A stretch of DNA of 24,981 nt, taken from the IMG/VR virus record IMGVR_UViG_3300033145_000775, positions 1 to 24,981 of that record; one strand, 5' to 3'. Shown here piece after piece: positions 1,710 to 16,526 of this stretch. The translations under genes and the position numbers were made by a program. Origin of the DNA: a virus. Within the stretch, counting starts at the first letter, position 1, and the number at the start of each line of letters is the position of its first letter. The notes under the pieces were generated by a model. That model worked only from the letters and a program-made list of their open reading frames with translations, made no database searches and was not told where the DNA came from.

Positions 1710-4286
1710 ATGGCTAGATATAACAAAGAATTGGCCGATAGAGCTGTCTTTTTTATACAGCATCTCAAGCATACAAAGGGGGAGTGGGCAGGGCAACCTT
1801 TCGTCTTGTTGCCCTGGCAGGAGAAGATAATTAGGGATGTCTTCGGCACTGTAAAGGACGATGGCTACAGGCAATACAACACTGTCTATATTGAGGTGCC
1901 AAAGAAAAATGGGAAGGCATTAGCTCTTGATACACCTTTACCGACACCCAGAGGGTGGACAACTATAGGGGATGTGAATGTGGGTGATATTCTTTTTGAT
2001 GAAGATGGCAACGAGTGTAGTGTTGTTGCTGTTACGGATGTTATGTATGGTCGGCCATGTTATGAGGTGATATTCGCAGATGGTGAGCGGATAATAGCAG
2101 ATGAGCAGCACCAATGGCTAACGAAGACATATATTCCATGGTTGAAAACAGGCATACACACAACCTTAGAGATAAAGAACACATTGGGGTATCAAAATGG
2201 GCGGAACCACAAAATAAGATTGCCCAAATCCATCAAATTAGAAGATAAAGAATTACCAATTCCCCCTTATGTTTTAGGGGTATGGCTTGGTGATGGCTCT
2301 TCTCGGTCGGCCAGTTTTACTTGTAGTTATAATGATTATCAAATAGTCGAAGAAGTAAATAGATGTGGGATTGAGACTAGAGAGTATAAGTCAAGCAATG
2401 AGAATAGTGGGCAGTTTGGTTTAGGTAATGGGGATAGAACGCAGAAAGCTAGGAATAAATCCATCCAGGCTGATATGCGCAAGCTAGGTTTATTACATAA
2501 AAAGCATATTCCCCAAGATTATTTAAGGGCATCAGTGTCGCAGAGGTTGGAGTTGTTACAGGGACTGATGGACACTGATGGATATATATCAAAAGCAGGA
2601 CAATGCGAGTTCACGACAACAAGTGAAGAATTGAGAGATGGTGTACTGGAATTATTGGCTTCGTTAGGGCTGAAGCGAACCTCAAAAACAGCTATCGCAA
2701 AATTAAACGGGAAAGATTGTGGACTTAAATACAGGATACAGTTTTATGCTTATGATGATGTTCCTGTATTTAAGCTAAAGAGGAAGATAGTTAGGCAGAA
2801 GCCAAGACCTCTACGGAAAACACGCAATGCATACAAGAAAATAATTGCTGTTAATCCTACTAAGTCAGTACCAGTAAAATGCATACAGGTAGATTCGCCG
2901 TCTGGTTTATTTCTGGCTGGCAAATCAATGGTGCCAACACATAATAGCGAATTAGCAGCCGCCGTAGCCCTGTATCTGTTATTTGGTGATGGGGAGCCTG
3001 GGGCAGAAGTATATGGTGCTGCCGCCGATAGATTCCAAGCTAGTATCGTATACAATGTGGCTGCTCAGATGGCGAGGCAGGAGCCAGCACTTACTAAGCG
3101 GTCACGGGTACTCGATAGTATTAAGCGGATAGTGGTATATAGCTCTAATAGCTTCTACCAGGTGCTTTCAGCAGAGGCCTTTACGAAGCATGGGCTGAAT
3201 GTACATGGATGTATATTCGATGAGCTACATACCCAGCCCAACAGGGAGCTATTTGATGTACTCACTAAGGGGAGTGGGGATGCCAGAAGACAACCGCTGT
3301 ACTTCCTGATAACCACTGCCGGAATAGACCGCAACAGCATTTGCTGGGAGGTTCACGAGAAGGCCAGACAGATATTGAATGGGACACGGGAAGACCCGAC
3401 ATTCTACCCGGTTCTATATGGGCTTGATGATGATGAGGATTGGGGGGATGAGGTTAACTGGTATAAGGTCAATCCGTCACTGGATGCGATTATTGATATT
3501 GAGAAAGTAAGAGCTCATTACCATGAAGCGAAGCAGAGCAAAACCGAGGAGAATGTCTTTCGGCAGTTACGATTAAACCAGTGGGTGAAACAGTCTGTGC
3601 GCTGGATGCAACTTGATAAATGGGACGCCAGTGATGGCAAGGTGGATACAGAGAAGCTGAAAGGACAGCCCTGCTATGCCGGTCTTGACCTATCTTCTAC
3701 CACCGATTTGACGGCATTATGTTTAGTATTCCCACAAGCCGATGGGACTTATGATATTTTGGCACACTTCTGGATACCGGAAGAGACCATGCGAGAGCGT
3801 GAACGGCGAGACAGAGTACCCTATACCAACTGGGTAGAGCAGGGTTATGTTACCGCTACGCCGGGCAATGTCATAGATTATGGCTTTGTTCAACAGACAT
3901 TAGAAGGCTATGCCAGCGAATATGATATCAAGGAAGTAGCTTTTGACCGATGGGGAGCGACCAAACTGTCACAGGATTTGACTAATGCTGGCTTCACCAT
4001 GGTGGAGTTCGGGCAAGGGTATAAATCTATGTCGGCACCGACTAAGGAACTGGAGACTTTGGTGCTGGGACGGCGGTTAAGACATGGTGGCAATCCAGTG
4101 TTGCGTTGGAATATAGATAATCTGGTAGTGAAGCAGGACCCTGCGGGGAATATAAAACCTGATAAACAAAAGTCCACGCAGAAAATAGATGGTGCTGTGG
4201 CTTTAATTATGGCACTAGACAGGGCCACAAGGCATTCAGAAGCAGAAACATCAATCTATGAAACCGAAGGATTAATGATTATTTAG
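1710..4286 (+). CDS. terL: Terminase large subunit (HK97-type ATPase/nuclease) interrupted by an intein
   Basis: TerL is the motor that pumps DNA into the prohead and cuts it. The reading frame has 858 codons, but residues 70-412 are an intein, so the spliced protein would have about 515 residues, typical for this family. The Walker A loop, PKKNGK-SEL, is split exactly between Lys69 and Ser413. Walker B is CIFDELH (D504, E505), followed by the coupling motif LITTAG. The RNase-H-like nuclease domain supplies acidic residues at D660 (GLDLSS), D746 (AFDRWG) and D828 (KIDGAV). It begins 2 bases after terS and ends 9 bases before the portal gene. Because the intein disrupts the P-loop, the unspliced precursor should lack ATPase activity. 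Confidence 0.95.
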   Translation: MARYNKELADRAVFFIQHLKHTKGEWAGQPFVLLPWQEKIIRDVFGTVKDDGYRQYNTVYIEVPKKNGKALALDTPLPTPRGWTTIGDVNVGDILFDEDGNECSVVAVTDVMYGRPCYEVIFADGERIIADEQHQWLTKTYIPWLKTGIHTTLEIKNTLGYQNGRNHKIRLPKSIKLEDKELPIPPYVLGVWLGDGSSRSASFTCSYNDYQIVEEVNRCGIETREYKSSNENSGQFGLGNGDRTQKARNKSIQADMRKLGLLHKKHIPQDYLRASVSQRLELLQGLMDTDGYISKAGQCEFTTTSEELRDGVLELLASLGLKRTSKTAIAKLNGKDCGLKYRIQFYAYDDVPVFKLKRKIVRQKPRPLRKTRNAYKKIIAVNPTKSVPVKCIQVDSPSGLFLAGKSMVPTHNSELAAAVALYLLFGDGEPGAEVYGAAADRFQASIVYNVAAQMARQEPALTKRSRVLDSIKRIVVYSSNSFYQVLSAEAFTKHGLNVHGCIFDELHTQPNRELFDVLTKGSGDARRQPLYFLITTAGIDRNSICWEVHEKARQILNGTREDPTFYPVLYGLDDDEDWGDEVNWYKVNPSLDAIIDIEKVRAHYHEAKQSKTEENVFRQLRLNQWVKQSVRWMQLDKWDASDGKVDTEKLKGQPCYAGLDLSSTTDLTALCLVFPQADGTYDILAHFWIPEETMRERERRDRVPYTNWVEQGYVTATPGNVIDYGFVQQTLEGYASEYDIKEVAFDRWGATKLSQDLTNAGFTMVEFGQGYKSMSAPTKELETLVLGRRLRHGGNPVLRWNIDNLVVKQDPAGNIKPDKQKSTQKIDGAVALIMALDRATRHSEAETSIYETEGLMII
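1917..2945 (+). other. Intein with LAGLIDADG homing endonuclease, class 3-like, inside TerL Walker A
   Basis: The in-frame insertion covers TerL residues 70-412 (343 residues). It starts with Ala70 instead of the usual Cys or Ser (ALALDTPLPTPRGW, block A) and ends VPTHN followed by Ser413 as the +1 residue. Block B is ADEQHQWLT with H134 and W136; block F is VKCIQVDSPSGLF with C391; block G has T410 just before His-Asn. Trp in block B, Cys in block F and Thr in block G, with no N-terminal nucleophile, is the signature of class 3 inteins, which use the block F Cys to form the branched intermediate. Two endonuclease motifs are visible: LGVWLGDGS (189-197) and LLQGLMDTDGYI (282-293). Its DNA looks more AT-rich than the flanking TerL DNA, suggesting separate ancestry. 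Confidence 0.93.
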
Positions 4287-10502: not shown

Positions 10503-11177
10503 ATGCAATCCACTATTGAGAGGATAGGCAATCCAGAAGGCTTTATATACGACCCGTCATTGGTCTTATATCTCCCACTTCACCAACTTGACGGCAGCTC
10601 CTTTATGTCCAAAGATGCTTATGGCCATCTATGCACTGTAACTGGTGCTTCGTGGAGACCTGACGGGCATTATTTTGATGGGACTGATGATTACATTGAT
10701 TGCGGGAATGGCGCAAGTTTGAATCCTACAGACGAAGTTACTGTTATAGCATGGCTAAACCCGAATTTTAGTTCTGCTACTTTTTATGGGATAGTAAGTA
10801 AATTTCAGGGCACTCCTGCAGGATGGCAACTTTACTGGAATACTGCACAATATCTTTATTTTTATGTCAATGATGACCAGGCTGTTAATACAGTGAAAGA
10901 TGTTTTGGTGAATGATACTTGGCAACATGTAGCAGTTACCTTAAAGAGTGATTCCACTTCTAAAAGTAAGATTTATGTTAACGCCGTTGATAAAACCAAT
11001 ACTGTTTCCTCCCGAACACTACAAGCAAATGACATTAATGTCGTAATCGGGGTAGCATCAAGCACTAAGAACAACCCTTTTAATGGCCTCATCGGCGAAG
11101 TCGCAGTCTACAACCGTGCTCTAACCCCATTGGAAGTCCAGCATAACTATCTAGCGACTAAGTGGAGATACAGATGA
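10503..11177 (+). CDS. LamG/concanavalin A-like lectin-fold virion protein
   Basis: The 224-residue protein is almost wholly a LamG-like jelly-roll domain: YLPLHQLDGSSF near the N terminus, HYFDGTDDYIDCG, VTVIAWLNP, the TWQHVAVTLKSDS segment that closely matches the family's WHHVA motif, then FNGLIGEVAVYNRAL and LATKWRY at the end. Such domains usually bind carbohydrate, so in a virion it may stick particles to cell-surface sugars or polysaccharide. It lies between capsid and connector genes rather than among tail fibres, which suggests a capsid decoration. The stop overlaps the next start (ATGA). Confidence 0.85.
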   Translation: MQSTIERIGNPEGFIYDPSLVLYLPLHQLDGSSFMSKDAYGHLCTVTGASWRPDGHYFDGTDDYIDCGNGASLNPTDEVTVIAWLNPNFSSATFYGIVSKFQGTPAGWQLYWNTAQYLYFYVNDDQAVNTVKDVLVNDTWQHVAVTLKSDSTSKSKIYVNAVDKTNTVSSRTLQANDINVVIGVASSTKNNPFNGLIGEVAVYNRALTPLEVQHNYLATKWRYR

Positions 11178-12373: not shown

Positions 12374-12792
12374 TGAGGGCATCTATAGAAACAAAAGGGC
12401 TAAAGGAACTCAAACAGAAGGCGGGGGATAGGCGTACGATTGGCGACCCACTTCGGGCTGCACTCAAGAAGGCAGCGCAGTTAGTGGAGAGAAGGGCGAG
12501 GAAACTGGCTAAGGGCTCGCTAAAAGGCACTATAAGCCATGCTGTTGATATATCCACGATACCCGAATGGGCGAAGGTATCTTCTAGCGCAAGAATAGCG
12601 CCTTGGGTGGAATTCGGGCATAAGCAACAGGTAGGGCAATTTGTGCCGGGGATTGAGAAGAGACTGGTGGCCGAAAGGGTAAAAGGGCGCTTCTTCTTGT
12701 GGGGGGCTTTCAAGGATATGAGGAGACAGATTAATAGTGTCATGAATAAATTCAATAGAGAGTTCGACAAGAAGTTTGATAGGAAGGTTTAA
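12373..12792 (+). CDS. HK97 gp10-like head-tail joining / tail completion protein
   Basis: This 139-residue, strongly basic protein matches the gp10-like family: RAALKKAAQLVERRARKLAK helix, then a beta segment ending SSSARIAPWVEFGHKQQ, where the WVEFG is the typical family motif, and a C-terminal helix with MRRQINSVMNKFNREF. The family works in joining the head connector to the tail. The start shares its first base with the connector stop, and its own stop overlaps the next ATG, consistent with translational coupling across the connector genes. Confidence 0.85.
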   Translation: MRASIETKGLKELKQKAGDRRTIGDPLRAALKKAAQLVERRARKLAKGSLKGTISHAVDISTIPEWAKVSSSARIAPWVEFGHKQQVGQFVPGIEKRLVAERVKGRFFLWGAFKDMRRQINSVMNKFNREFDKKFDRKV

Positions 12793-13202
12793 TGAGTATA
12801 GAGACCATCGGGACCGGATTGAAAGCACGGTTACAGACCATTTCAGGATTGACAGCCTTTGCTCCCAATGAATTACCGGAATCTATTAATCAGTTCCCCA
12901 CTGCCCTTATTCTACAGGATGCTACCCAGTATGATGCTGCCTTTAGTAGTGCCGATTTTGATACAAGATTCAGAATCATAATCTTATTCTCTAAGGCGGA
13001 TCAGCCAACGACACTGGATAAAATTATCCCCTATACCGAACCCACCGGCACGGAATCAGTTAGGGCAGCCATCAATGGGGATAAGACGCTAGGGGGTGCT
13101 GCCGACAGTTTGATTGTCCAGACCAATAGCGGTATGGGGACTACCCAGTGGGGGAAGTATACCTACATATCAACCGAGTTTGAGGTATTGGTCTATGGAT
13201 GA
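12792..13202 (+). CDS. Tail terminator / tail completion protein
   Basis: The protein has 136 residues, the usual size for a siphovirus tail terminator that caps the tube and docks to the head. It begins SIETIGTGLKARLQTISGL, a common opening for this group, followed by FPTALIL, DTRFRIIILFSKAD and, at the end, YTYISTEFEVLVYG. Sequence conservation in this family is weak, so the call depends largely on its place between the gp10-like gene and the tail tube genes. The ATG shares a base with the preceding stop. Confidence 0.7.
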   Translation: MSIETIGTGLKARLQTISGLTAFAPNELPESINQFPTALILQDATQYDAAFSSADFDTRFRIIILFSKADQPTTLDKIIPYTEPTGTESVRAAINGDKTLGGAADSLIVQTNSGMGTTQWGKYTYISTEFEVLVYG

Positions 13203-13437
13203 GTTAAAACAAGGTGAAAACTATTATGTGGCTCGCGTCAGGCTGATGCTCAACTACGGCAAACTGATAGTAGAGCCAGGGGCTAAAGTGATTCTGGGTC
13301 CCGATGATAAGAAAACAGGGATAAATATCGGCAGGCTGATAGAGACGGGGGCTATTGCCCCTTGTGAGTTTCGAGAGCAGGCAACTATTGTCAAAGGGAG
13401 AAAGCCAAAGAGGAGGAATGAAAAATGGCTCGATTAG
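13195..13437 (+). CDS. Small basic protein between tail terminator and tail tube, unknown
   Basis: The ATG at 13195 lies inside the end of the terminator gene, an 8-base overlap, and gives an 80-residue product beginning MDELKQGENYYVARVRLML. It contains KLIVEPGAKVILGPDDKKTG and ends in a Lys/Arg-rich tail (KGRKPKRRNEKWLD). The frame is open further upstream but there it only shadows the terminator gene. No family is recognised. It overlaps the first tail tube gene by 13 bases. Confidence 0.6.
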   Translation: MDELKQGENYYVARVRLMLNYGKLIVEPGAKVILGPDDKKTGINIGRLIETGAIAPCEFREQATIVKGRKPKRRNEKWLD

Positions 13438-13799
13438 CAGGAACAGGTGGAAATGTAAAGTATGGAGCCGGCCCAACTACAGTCGCGGGCATAAAATCGT
13501 GGACTCTTGACTATGTATACAACACTGCCGAAGGTACTGGCTTTGATAGCAGTGGGCACAAAGAGTTCAAGCCCACACTGGATGAATGGAGCGGTAGTTT
13601 CGAGGGTTCTAAGGATGGTGCTCCAATCAGCATTGGGACCGAGGTTGCCCTGGAATTAGAGGAGAGTGCTACTGCTGGTCAGGAGTGGACAGGGCAGGCC
13701 ATTATCACGGCTGTCCATTCCTCGGTAACAGTGGAGGGGCTAGTAACATACAGTTACGACTTCCAGGGGACTGGTGCGTTAACAGTAGCTTCAGCGTAA
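13425..13799 (+). CDS. Tail tube protein, short copy
   Basis: This 124-residue protein begins MARLAGTGGNV and contains IKSWTLDYV, FDSSGHKEFKPTLDEWSGSFEG, and ends GLVTYSYDFQGTG. The pattern and length fit a small phage tail tube protein, which stacks in rings to form the DNA conduit. Position between tail terminator and tail chaperone supports this. A paralogue follows 10 bases downstream, and from the VAGIKSW motif onward both align without gaps over 105 residues, about 70% identical by eye. An AAAGAGGAGG-type SD lies before the ATG. Confidence 0.82.
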   Translation: MARLAGTGGNVKYGAGPTTVAGIKSWTLDYVYNTAEGTGFDSSGHKEFKPTLDEWSGSFEGSKDGAPISIGTEVALELEESATAGQEWTGQAIITAVHSSVTVEGLVTYSYDFQGTGALTVASA

Positions 13800-13809
13800 G
13801 GAGGATAAT

Positions 13810-14619
13810 ATGGCAAGAATAGCAGGTTATGGTGGGAATGTTTTAGTAGGCACTCAACTGGTAGAGGACTGTGAGGATGCCTGGGATGAGTTGGTAGATG
13901 CTGATGTAACCGCCTCAGCTGATACAAGCGATTATAAGGTCGGGAGTGCTAGTGCAAAGTTTGTTTGTGGCGACCTCCTGGCCAATGGTGACATTATAGC
14001 TACAGAGGCTATAAGCTCTCTGGATTTATCCTCATATACTCAGTTGCTATTTTGGGCCAAGTCCTCTGTCGCTATTAACACCGCCGGGGACTTACAGATA
14101 CTTCTGGATGACACAGCGCAGTGTGCCTCTCCGGTAGTTACACTTGACATTCCAATTCTGTCAGCGAATACATGGAAGTTCTGTAAGGCAACAGGGACAT
14201 TCACCGGCGCCACAGCCATTATATCTGTTGGAGTAAAGCTCACCGCAAATGACCCTGGTGCTTTTACCTTGCGGCTTGATGAGATAAGAGCTGCTAAACA
14301 GGTTGCCGGTATCAAGTCCTGGACATTGGACTATGTGATGAATGTACTTGAGACTACTGGCTTTGATTCTAGCGGACATAAGACATTTATTCCATCGGTT
14401 GATGAATGGTCGGGTTCATTCGAGGGATACAAAGATGGGGCTCCACTGGCTATCGGTTCATCAGTAGGGCTTGAACTACAGGAAAGTTCTACATCCACGC
14501 AACAGTGGCGCGGCACAGCCATCATTACAGCAGTTCATCCTGCTACCGCCATTGACGGATTAGTAACATACTCTTATGACTTCCAAGGGACTCGCAAGCT
14601 AGAGATACCGACAGCCTAA
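13810..14619 (+). CDS. Tail tube protein paralogue with an inserted domain
   Basis: This 269-residue protein is a second tail tube protein. Its first 16 residues (MARIAGYGGNVLVGTQ) and residues 165-269 (from VAGIKSWTLDYV) match the 124-residue copy upstream, while residues about 17-164 are extra. The insert begins VEDCEDAWDELVD, contains DLSSYTQLLFWAKSS and a strand-rich stretch ending DPGAFTLRLDEI, the look of a carbohydrate-binding or jelly-roll module. Since it enters an N-terminal loop, it would likely project from the tube surface. A GGAGG SD lies 7 bases upstream. The gene shares a base with the tail chaperone ATG. Confidence 0.8.
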   Translation: MARIAGYGGNVLVGTQLVEDCEDAWDELVDADVTASADTSDYKVGSASAKFVCGDLLANGDIIATEAISSLDLSSYTQLLFWAKSSVAINTAGDLQILLDDTAQCASPVVTLDIPILSANTWKFCKATGTFTGATAIISVGVKLTANDPGAFTLRLDEIRAAKQVAGIKSWTLDYVMNVLETTGFDSSGHKTFIPSVDEWSGSFEGYKDGAPLAIGSSVGLELQESSTSTQQWRGTAIITAVHPATAIDGLVTYSYDFQGTRKLEIPTA

Positions 14620-15176
14620 TGAGGAATAATCGGCTGGATGAAATTATAACTCTCGTAGTACGCGAGACTGGGTGGAGCCTGGAATATGTCCAGCAGATGC
14701 CATTCGCTATCCTGTGTAAGCTCGTTGAGGAATTGGACTATCAGAAGAAACTGGATGACTACAAGACGGCATCCTACTTTGCGATGGTGATTGCTACTTA
14801 CTTGAACGCTCATACAAAAGACAGGAAGTTCAAGATTAAGGATTTCATTGGTGACCCACCACAGAGAAGAAAAGAAGGAGGGATTAGTTTGGCTCATAAA
14901 ACAGGAGCAACAATTGTTAAGTTGGGGGATGGCCAAGAGTATGAGTTCGTTCCCCTTAATGCCAATATGATGGCAGAGGTTGAAGAACACTTTGATATGT
15001 CATTTGACAAGATGTTCGGCGGTGACCAAAGGAGAACGAAATATACCCGATACCTATTATGGACCATACTCAAAGCAAAGTACCCTGACATTACTGAAGA
15101 ACAGGTTGGGGAGATCTTAACGGCAAAGGTTATCGCTGAGGCATTTCCAAAAATATTCGAACATATAATGGAGTAA
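14619..15176 (+). CDS. Probable tail assembly chaperone in one reading frame
   Basis: The gene lies exactly where siphoviruses encode the tail assembly chaperones, between tail tube and tape measure, and encodes 185 residues. The N-terminal part (about 1-85) has TGWSLEYVQQMPFAILCKLV, reminiscent of the T domain of GT-type chaperones. The C-terminal part (about 91-185) has IVKLGDGQEYEFVPLN and LLWTILKAKYPDITEEQVGE, similar to the G-like domain. Many phages make these by a programmed frameshift; here both parts share one frame. An in-frame TTG at 14889 with a strong SD could produce the C-terminal part alone. The family call is mainly by position and pattern. Confidence 0.65.
   Translation: MRNNRLDEIITLVVRETGWSLEYVQQMPFAILCKLVEELDYQKKLDDYKTASYFAMVIATYLNAHTKDRKFKIKDFIGDPPQRRKEGGISLAHKTGATIVKLGDGQEYEFVPLNANMMAEVEEHFDMSFDKMFGGDQRRTKYTRYLLWTILKAKYPDITEEQVGEILTAKVIAEAFPKIFEHIME
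14875..14891 (+). promoter_or_regulatory. Strong internal SD with in-frame TTG inside the tail chaperone gene
   Basis: AAGGAGGG at 14875-14882 is followed 6 bases later by TTG at 14889-14891 in the reading frame of the chaperone. Initiation here would yield a 95-residue protein (MAHKTGATIVKLG...) equal to the C-terminal domain. Such a perfect SD inside a gene is unusual, but whether it is used cannot be seen from sequence. Confidence 0.55.
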
Positions 15177-15179
15177 TAG

Positions 15180-16526
15180 ATGGGTGCTACTTCTAAATTA
15201 GAAATCCTGATTAAAGCTAACGATAAGGCGTCTGCCAAGATGAAGGGTGTCGGTAAGTCTGCCAATGCTATGGGAGCTAATCTCGCCAAGGTAGGCGGGA
15301 TAATGACTGGCGTTGGTATTGGGATGATAGCCACGCTCGGCAAGTTTGCAAACAGCTTCAGTAAAGCAGGTGATGAAGTGCAAAAGATGGCGAAACGGAC
15401 TGGCTTTAGCACGGAAGCCCTGTCCGAACTTCGTCATGTTGCTAAAATCACTGGCACTGAATTGGGTTCAATAGAGAAGGCTACCAAAAGAATGAGCAAG
15501 TCCATCATTGATGCCGATAGGGGGCTTGAGACCTATAAGCGCTCATTTGATGAGCTAGGATTGGAAATAAGCACCCTCCGGGCAATGAAGCCAGAGGAGC
15601 AGTTCTGGACAATCGCCAATGCCATTAGTGCTCTTGAAGACCAAACACTGAAGGCATCTCTCGCGCAGGAGATATTCGGGAGGGCGGGGCCAGAGTTGCT
15701 ACCAATGTTTGCCGAGACAGCAGAAGGGATAGATGCTCTGAGACAGGAAGCCCACGACCTTAATTTAGTGTTTGACCAAGAGGCAGCAGACTCCGCCGCG
15801 GCCTTTGAGGATGCCAAGACAAAGCTGGTAGGTGCTTTACAGGGGATAGGATTTGCTATAGCTGAAGACCTTATGCCTCTCCTGACTGATTTGGTTACTA
15901 AACTAACAGACGGCCTGAAACCTGTGCTGGCGTGGCTTGATGAACACCCTAATTTTTCAAAGGGCTTGCTAATAGCCGCTGCAGCTATTTTGGGTACAGG
16001 GGGTCTTCTGATAGGCATCAGACTGCTTACTGCTGCCTTTGGCCCACTTATAGCGAGCCTTGTTTCTGTGTGGGCTTTGCTGCCGGGTGGATTTGTTAGG
16101 CTTGCAGTTGCTATGGGGGCAATAGCAGGCATAATGGCTGGATTGGGCAAAGCCTTTGGGATAGGGCCTATGGCAGGCTTATTCCCTAAGAAAAAGATAA
16201 TGAAATATGAACCCGGTATGGGGCCTCCGCCCCCAGGATATACCTACGGGGAAGTTGATGAGAAGCCATCTGGTTTAGCTCCTGGTCAAACCTATGGTTA
16301 CGGCATAGGAGGTGAGATACCCTCATTTGCCACCGGCGGTATAGTCCCTGGCCCTATAGGGCAACCCAGATTAGTTGAGGCTCATGGTGGCGAATATATC
16401 GGCCATATGGCAGGTAATGTTTATATTACCGTACAGGGTTCAGTAGTCACAGAGAGAGATTTAGCAGAGACTTTAAGGCGTGCTTTTATCAAAGTAAAGG
16501 CTAGGAATACAACGACAGGTTTATGA
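15180..16526 (+). CDS. Tail tape measure protein (short)
   Basis: The 448-residue protein has the hallmarks of a tape measure: a helical N terminus (LEILIKANDKASAKMKGVG), the RTGFSTEALSELRHVAKITG segment widely shared in this family, IFGRAGPELLPMF, then hydrophobic stretches around residues 262-320 (LLIAAAAILGTGGLLIGI and later Ala/Gly-rich helices). The C terminus has a Pro/Gly-rich linker and TGGIVPGPIGQPRLVEAHGG, typical of tape measures. It sets tail length and helps DNA ejection. At the known rule of about 0.15 nm per residue, the tail would be near 65-70 nm. It starts 3 bases after the chaperone stop. Confidence 0.92.
   Translation: MGATSKLEILIKANDKASAKMKGVGKSANAMGANLAKVGGIMTGVGIGMIATLGKFANSFSKAGDEVQKMAKRTGFSTEALSELRHVAKITGTELGSIEKATKRMSKSIIDADRGLETYKRSFDELGLEISTLRAMKPEEQFWTIANAISALEDQTLKASLAQEIFGRAGPELLPMFAETAEGIDALRQEAHDLNLVFDQEAADSAAAFEDAKTKLVGALQGIGFAIAEDLMPLLTDLVTKLTDGLKPVLAWLDEHPNFSKGLLIAAAAILGTGGLLIGIRLLTAAFGPLIASLVSVWALLPGGFVRLAVAMGAIAGIMAGLGKAFGIGPMAGLFPKKKIMKYEPGMGPPPPGYTYGEVDEKPSGLAPGQTYGYGIGGEIPSFATGGIVPGPIGQPRLVEAHGGEYIGHMAGNVYITVQGSVVTERDLAETLRRAFIKVKARNTTTGL

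Follow-up and report, generated by a model that had tools for sequence, protein, structure and literature searches.

A tandem pair of predicted tail-tube paralogs, one carrying a CBM-like module, in siphophages linked to Dehalococcoidia

RESULTS

Two adjacent tube genes in the late region

The DNA analyzed in this work is a virus record of 24,981 bases, referred to here as the window. It carries a standard siphophage late region, in which genes for terminase, portal, protease, capsid, adaptor, and tail terminator are followed by two tube genes, a tail protein gene, and the tape measure gene. All features listed below are on the plus strand, and the two tube genes, designated A and B, were found at the position expected for such genes, between the terminator (12792) and the chaperone/tape measure genes (15180).

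12792..13202, +, tail terminator gene, upstream of gene A (PHROG 17840, E 4e-26)
13411..13416, +, ribosome site of A, AGGAGG (anti-Shine-Dalgarno duplex, -11.9 kcal/mol)
13425..13799, +, gene A, predicted plain tail-tube (major tail) protein, 124 amino acids (PHROG 1407, structure model)
13515..13586, +, residues 31 to 54 of A, comprising the end of beta2, the beta2-beta3 (stacking) loop, and the start of beta3 (A-B matching within a genome)
13798..13804, +, ribosome site of B, AAGGAGG (anti-Shine-Dalgarno duplex, -11.1 kcal/mol), overlapping the stop codon of A
13810..14619, +, gene B, predicted decorated tail-tube paralog, 269 amino acids (identity to A, PHROG 1407, structure model)
13858..14298, +, insert module of B, residues 17 to 163, a predicted CBM-like beta-sandwich in the beta1-beta2 loop, absent from A
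14335..14406, +, residues 176 to 199 of B, the counterpart of A 31 to 54 (A-B matching within a genome)
14619..15176, +, tail protein (PHROG 2115 tail protein, E 2e-7), between the tube genes and the tape measure gene
15180..16526, +, tape measure protein, 448 amino acids (TIGR01760, E 2e-6, just under the cut-off)

Judging from its position, the product of 14619..15176 is probably the tail assembly chaperone. Elsewhere in the window, the left end (50-1237, +) encodes a fusion of a ParB-N domain with an N6/N4 DNA methylase, and the large terminase gene is interrupted by an intein-like insert (1710-4286, +) with LAGLIDADG homing endonuclease matches (PF14528 and PF05204). A Laminin-G/ConA-like lectin protein (10503-11177, +; PF13385, E 1.5e-26) is encoded between the capsid and tail genes, and it is possible that this putative surface binder represents a second decoration of the same phage.

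When A and B were compared by BLASTP, 72 of 105 residues were identical (69%) and 86 of 105 positive in an ungapped alignment (E 1e-52), and 10 of the first 14 residues matched, in agreement with a preliminary description of this DNA in which near 70% identity over 105 ungapped residues and similar N termini had been noted. The extra stretch of some 145 residues reported there after residue 16 was also found, in B only, and spans about 147 residues (B 17 to 163). At this E value, chance similarity was rejected. So was an assembly artefact, since the tandem pair recurs in 65 sequence-distinct related loci and in two bacterial genomes. Nor is B a frameshift product of the type known from SPP1 and the 936 phages, because it is a separate gene, 10 bases from A, with its own start codon and its own AAGGAGG site; likewise, a fused duplicate of the T5 type was dismissed, as A ends in a stop codon and B has a new start.

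Both proteins matched the major tail protein family PHROG 1407 (E 1.7e-13 for A and 3.2e-10 for B). The match of A to PF06199 fell just under the cut-off (E 7e-5), the gathering score of Pfam Phage_tail_2 was missed (23.2 bits for A versus 23.8 required; 13.8 for B), and a sequence search of the PDB yielded only R4C for A (E 0.007) and no match for B; the tube assignment is carried by evidence other than the Pfam gathering score. AlphaFold2 models were built from alignments of relatives, giving a pLDDT of 76.5 and a pTM of 0.65 for A, which is only moderate, and 88.1 and 0.82 for B. Among solved tubes, that of the marine siphophage R4C (8gtb) was the best match of both models (A, Z 9.7, rmsd 5.7, 114 residues aligned; B core, Z 11.0, rmsd 3.2, 117 aligned). 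These sequence and model data indicated that A and B are tail-tube paralogs with a predicted tube core in each, so that the tail-tube fold which the preliminary description expected was recovered for both proteins.

A CBM-like module in the beta1-beta2 loop of B

In the predicted structure of B, the insert forms a separate beta-sandwich between strands beta1 and beta2. Its fold matched CBM30, CBM11, CBM4, CBM22, CBM16, and the HFTV1 turret (8qpg) with Z scores of 10 to 13.7, and the CBM30, 11, 4, and 22 structures aligned over 130 to 149 residues (Z 10 to 12.6). In the HFTV1 turret, the matching domain is galactose-binding-like and has been proposed as a glycan-binding module (PMC12494034). 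The insert alone gave no match in Pfam (up to E 0.5) or NCBIfam. Thus, the sugar-binding-like character suggested earlier holds at the level of the modeled fold, whereas membership of a carbohydrate-binding module family by sequence was not borne out; the insert is CBM-like in its predicted fold, which does not in itself prove sugar binding. In solved tubes, the beta1-beta2 loop lies on the outer side, where it touches the external Ig domain (lambda) or the sheath (T6SS) (PMC8718954). Since the module sits in this loop, it would project outward from the tube, a placement that follows from homology to solved tubes rather than from a computed ring; the outside location proposed in the preliminary description is upheld to that extent.

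The module is found in other proteins as well. It is inserted independently in the tube family PF18906 (L071, by Pfam, and the related L069 and L072 to L074), and further carriers are a beta-helix spike (L058) and an archaellin-like protein of a Dehalococcoidia-class genome (L153:1156-2295, minus strand; PF01917, E 3e-19). Moreover, a module-bearing protein adjoins a plain paralog in two other protein families (L055:4719-6081 and L061:4584-6137, the latter family being PHROG 8123, of unknown function), so the pattern of plain and decorated pairs recurs beyond tube genes. The module has the appearance of a mobile domain that decorates filament and virion surfaces within the same ecological group.

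The tandem pair is conserved among relatives

Scans of viral contigs revealed plain-plus-decorated tandem pairs in 65 sequence-distinct related loci, always with the plain gene first. What had been taken for a peculiarity of a single genome is therefore a conserved trait of the whole phage group, dozens of whose members stem from uncultured microbes. The same scans yielded plain-plus-plain pairs at 7 loci, which shows that the duplication also occurs in the absence of the insert and that the insert is not required for keeping the duplicate. In four of the plain second copies (L059, L065, L075, and L085), the tyrosine at position 12, a hallmark of B, is kept, indicating that B also occurs in a form lacking the insert. 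At L095, where both flanks are present, there is only one tube gene, a plain one, so B is dispensable in some relatives.

Two pairs reside in Dehalococcoidia-class genomes, as relatives of the window phage. One of them (L150), at 1.03 Mb of a single-contig 1.5-Mb genome, matches a locus on a viral contig (L025) without any difference across 3,801 bases, and the genome contig scan led to one Dehalococcoidia contig. When relatives were sought among isolated phages, tblastn of B against 50,697 phage records returned one match only, the distant phage DSL-LC06, which has the same gene order and one tube gene.

A third short gene with weak tube similarity (77% probability in profile comparison) directly follows B in most relatives, including L015:993-1376, L033:4427-4822, L043:6164-6490, and others. 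It was not detected in the window, where the tail protein gene at 14619 comes directly after B. Open reading frames resembling homing endonucleases (LAGLIDADG-like or HNH-like, as judged by eye) occur between the tube genes or next to them at L031:4541-4996, L040:2137-2799 (minus strand), and L095:2015-2482.

Ribosome sites of A and B are as strong as that of the capsid gene

Anti-Shine-Dalgarno pairing energies of A and B (-11.9 and -11.1 kcal/mol) were close to that of the capsid gene (-11.5 kcal/mol), and the other window genes tested ranged from -1.9 to -9.3 kcal/mol. Across 44 pairs, the medians of A and B were equal, and a ribosome site of capsid strength precedes B in nearly all genomes. 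A site this strong suggests that B may be made in large amounts.

A and B are matched within genomes in one segment only

Over residues 31 to 50 of 42 complete pairs, the identity between A and B of the same genome was 0.74, versus 0.46 for A and B of different genomes and 0.48 among A orthologs. In a nearest-relative test, residues 31 to 54 exhibited an own-pair excess in 33 of 39 informative genomes (p 7e-6) and residues 63 to 85 none (p 0.98), p values that are optimistic because the genomes are not fully independent. Trees point the same way, although each comprises few columns and many unresolved forks: A and B sorted by type over residues 63 to 124 (9 label changes versus 27.6 when shuffled), whereas the labels were mixed over residues 23 to 62 (25 versus 27.4). 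The pair therefore exhibits concerted evolution that is confined to a segment. In solved tubes, strands beta2 and beta3 line the lumen barrel, and the loop between them forms the largest ring-ring contact (PMC8718954).

Gene conversion between neighboring repeats could by itself produce such matching, which would then be uninformative about co-assembly. Identical tracts within the segment (107 nt in L053 and 51 nt in L029) speak for it, and in these two loci the matching stems from recent conversion, a process that does not require the proteins to touch; homing endonucleases separating or adjoining the copies in L031, L040, and L095 also fit. However, synonymous codons over residues 31 to 54, pooled across all pairs, were near random (0.40 versus 0.352 expected), and the synonymous excess was larger in residues 86 to 124, where protein matching is weak. 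We consider it unlikely, albeit a serious contender, that conversion is the whole explanation; an ancient conversion event with purifying selection thereafter is a possible source of the matching. The better reading of these alignments appears to be that selection favors A/B matching, whether or not conversion, occasional or old, contributes as well; the two are not fully separable.

Residues that distinguish A from B occur in beta1 (10 and 12), the insertion loop (16 to 18), beta4 (73, 75, 77, and 79), and beta5.1 (87, 89, and 91), and beta2-beta3 is free of them. The alternation of these positions suggests that they occupy one sheet face, presumably the outer one, beside the insert. An argument from lumen- versus core-facing alternation of the co-varying sites was dropped, as the signal was weak in beta3 (0.41 versus 0.24) and no difference was seen in beta2.

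DISCUSSION

We think it probable, with room for doubt, that one noncontractile tube contains both A and B as subunits and that B displays its module outward. In this arrangement, A would be the plain subunit, and B a paralog with an outer face specialized for holding, in its beta1-beta2 loop, a glycan-binding-like module. The tube wall would be built from both, and the lumen-lining and ring-stacking part, kept matched in each genome, would allow them to polymerize together round the same tape measure. The projecting modules would probably attach the phage to the host surface through many weak contacts. Counting for the mixed tube are the tube fold of both proteins, the CBM-like insert, the 65 tandem loci, the segment-wise matching, the type-specific residues next to the insert, the equally strong ribosome sites, and the presence of the module in PF18906; counting against it are the single gene at L095, the plain-plus-plain pairs, the conversion in L053 and L029, and the only moderate model of A. 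A stricter version, with the tube as an obligate heteromer (for instance, rings in which three A and three B alternate, so that exactly half of the subunits display the module at fixed spacing), is offered tentatively and seems rather doubtful to us.

Two further arrangements were weighed against the mixed tube. B could be a minor, position-specific tube-like protein, acting in the first or last ring or as a baseplate or neck adaptor, rather than a co-major subunit. Tube-fold paralogs are indeed common at tube ends, such as T4 gp48 and gp54 (PMC8718954) and the trimeric connectors (PMC12494034), and a locus that manages with a single gene (L095) agrees with a minor role. Against such a role stand the ribosome site of B, which matches that of the capsid gene in strength in nearly every genome, the high identity of its core to A, and the stacking loop and lumen strands that it shares with A in a genome-specific manner, and we regard the minor role as improbable. 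It is far less probable still that A and B build separate tubes as alternative tails, or that B replaces A in some virions only: nothing direct favors this beyond the fact that either core could in principle self-polymerize, while the two genes lie 10 bases apart in one apparent operon with equal ribosome sites, and the window holds one tape measure gene.

If the mixed tube is correct, these phages would supply a natural test case for tubes that are heteromeric by design. The division of the subunits into one face, for stacking and lumen, that is matched within genomes and another that is specific to the type leads to direct predictions for structure determination and mutagenesis. A hypothesis of surface binding would also follow for the phages that are linked to Dehalococcoidia, bacteria generally described as devoid of a peptidoglycan wall and surrounded by an S-layer-like envelope.

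The literature searched described no separate-gene pair of plain and decorated tube proteins, which is weak evidence of absence as subscription papers lay largely outside the search; within that scope, it is new for a separate, dedicated paralog to carry an insertion in an N-terminal loop and for such a pair to be retained and matched in its polymerizing part. Regarding the arrangement, which the preliminary description had called unusual, the insertion site and the separate gene remain so, but internal decoration itself is already known from JBD30 and YSD1. There, JBD30 gp44 and YSD1_22 likewise bear a decoration domain inside the tube protein, yet each is a single tube gene with another insertion point and all subunits decorated. 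T5 pb6 shares the duplicated tube domain, but its duplicates are fused in one chain that forms trimeric rings and carries a C-terminal Ig domain (PMC8718954); an obligate A/B heteromer would be its unfused, two-gene counterpart. A two-paralog ring of tube-like fold is represented, by its entry title only, by the Bacteroides T6SS Hcp2-Hcp3 heterohexamer (PDB 9vne), which belongs to a secretion system rather than a phage. In actinobacteriophage clusters (e.g., Damascus), the annotation of major tail protein is likewise given to more than one gene, although the proteins concerned are much larger and neither a duplicated origin nor a mixed tube has been demonstrated for them.

The closest parallels are found in tubes diversified by frameshifting. 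SPP1 produces two major tail proteins, gp17.1 and gp17.1*, in a 3:1 ratio by translational frameshift of one gene (PMC8718954), and thus combines plain and decorated subunits in one tube, with a decoration thought to bind host surface glycans; unlike the insert of B, this is a C-terminal FN3 domain made by the frameshift (PMC8718954). In the 936 lactococcal phages, a fraction of the tube subunits likewise carries a CBM, as the major tail protein is accompanied by TpeX, for which binding to host cells has been shown (PMC6669499), but TpeX is a frameshift product with a C-terminal extension, and its host is Gram-positive (PMC6669499). The tandem genes described here would then represent, besides frameshifting, a second genetic route by which plain and decorated subunits come to share a tail tube.
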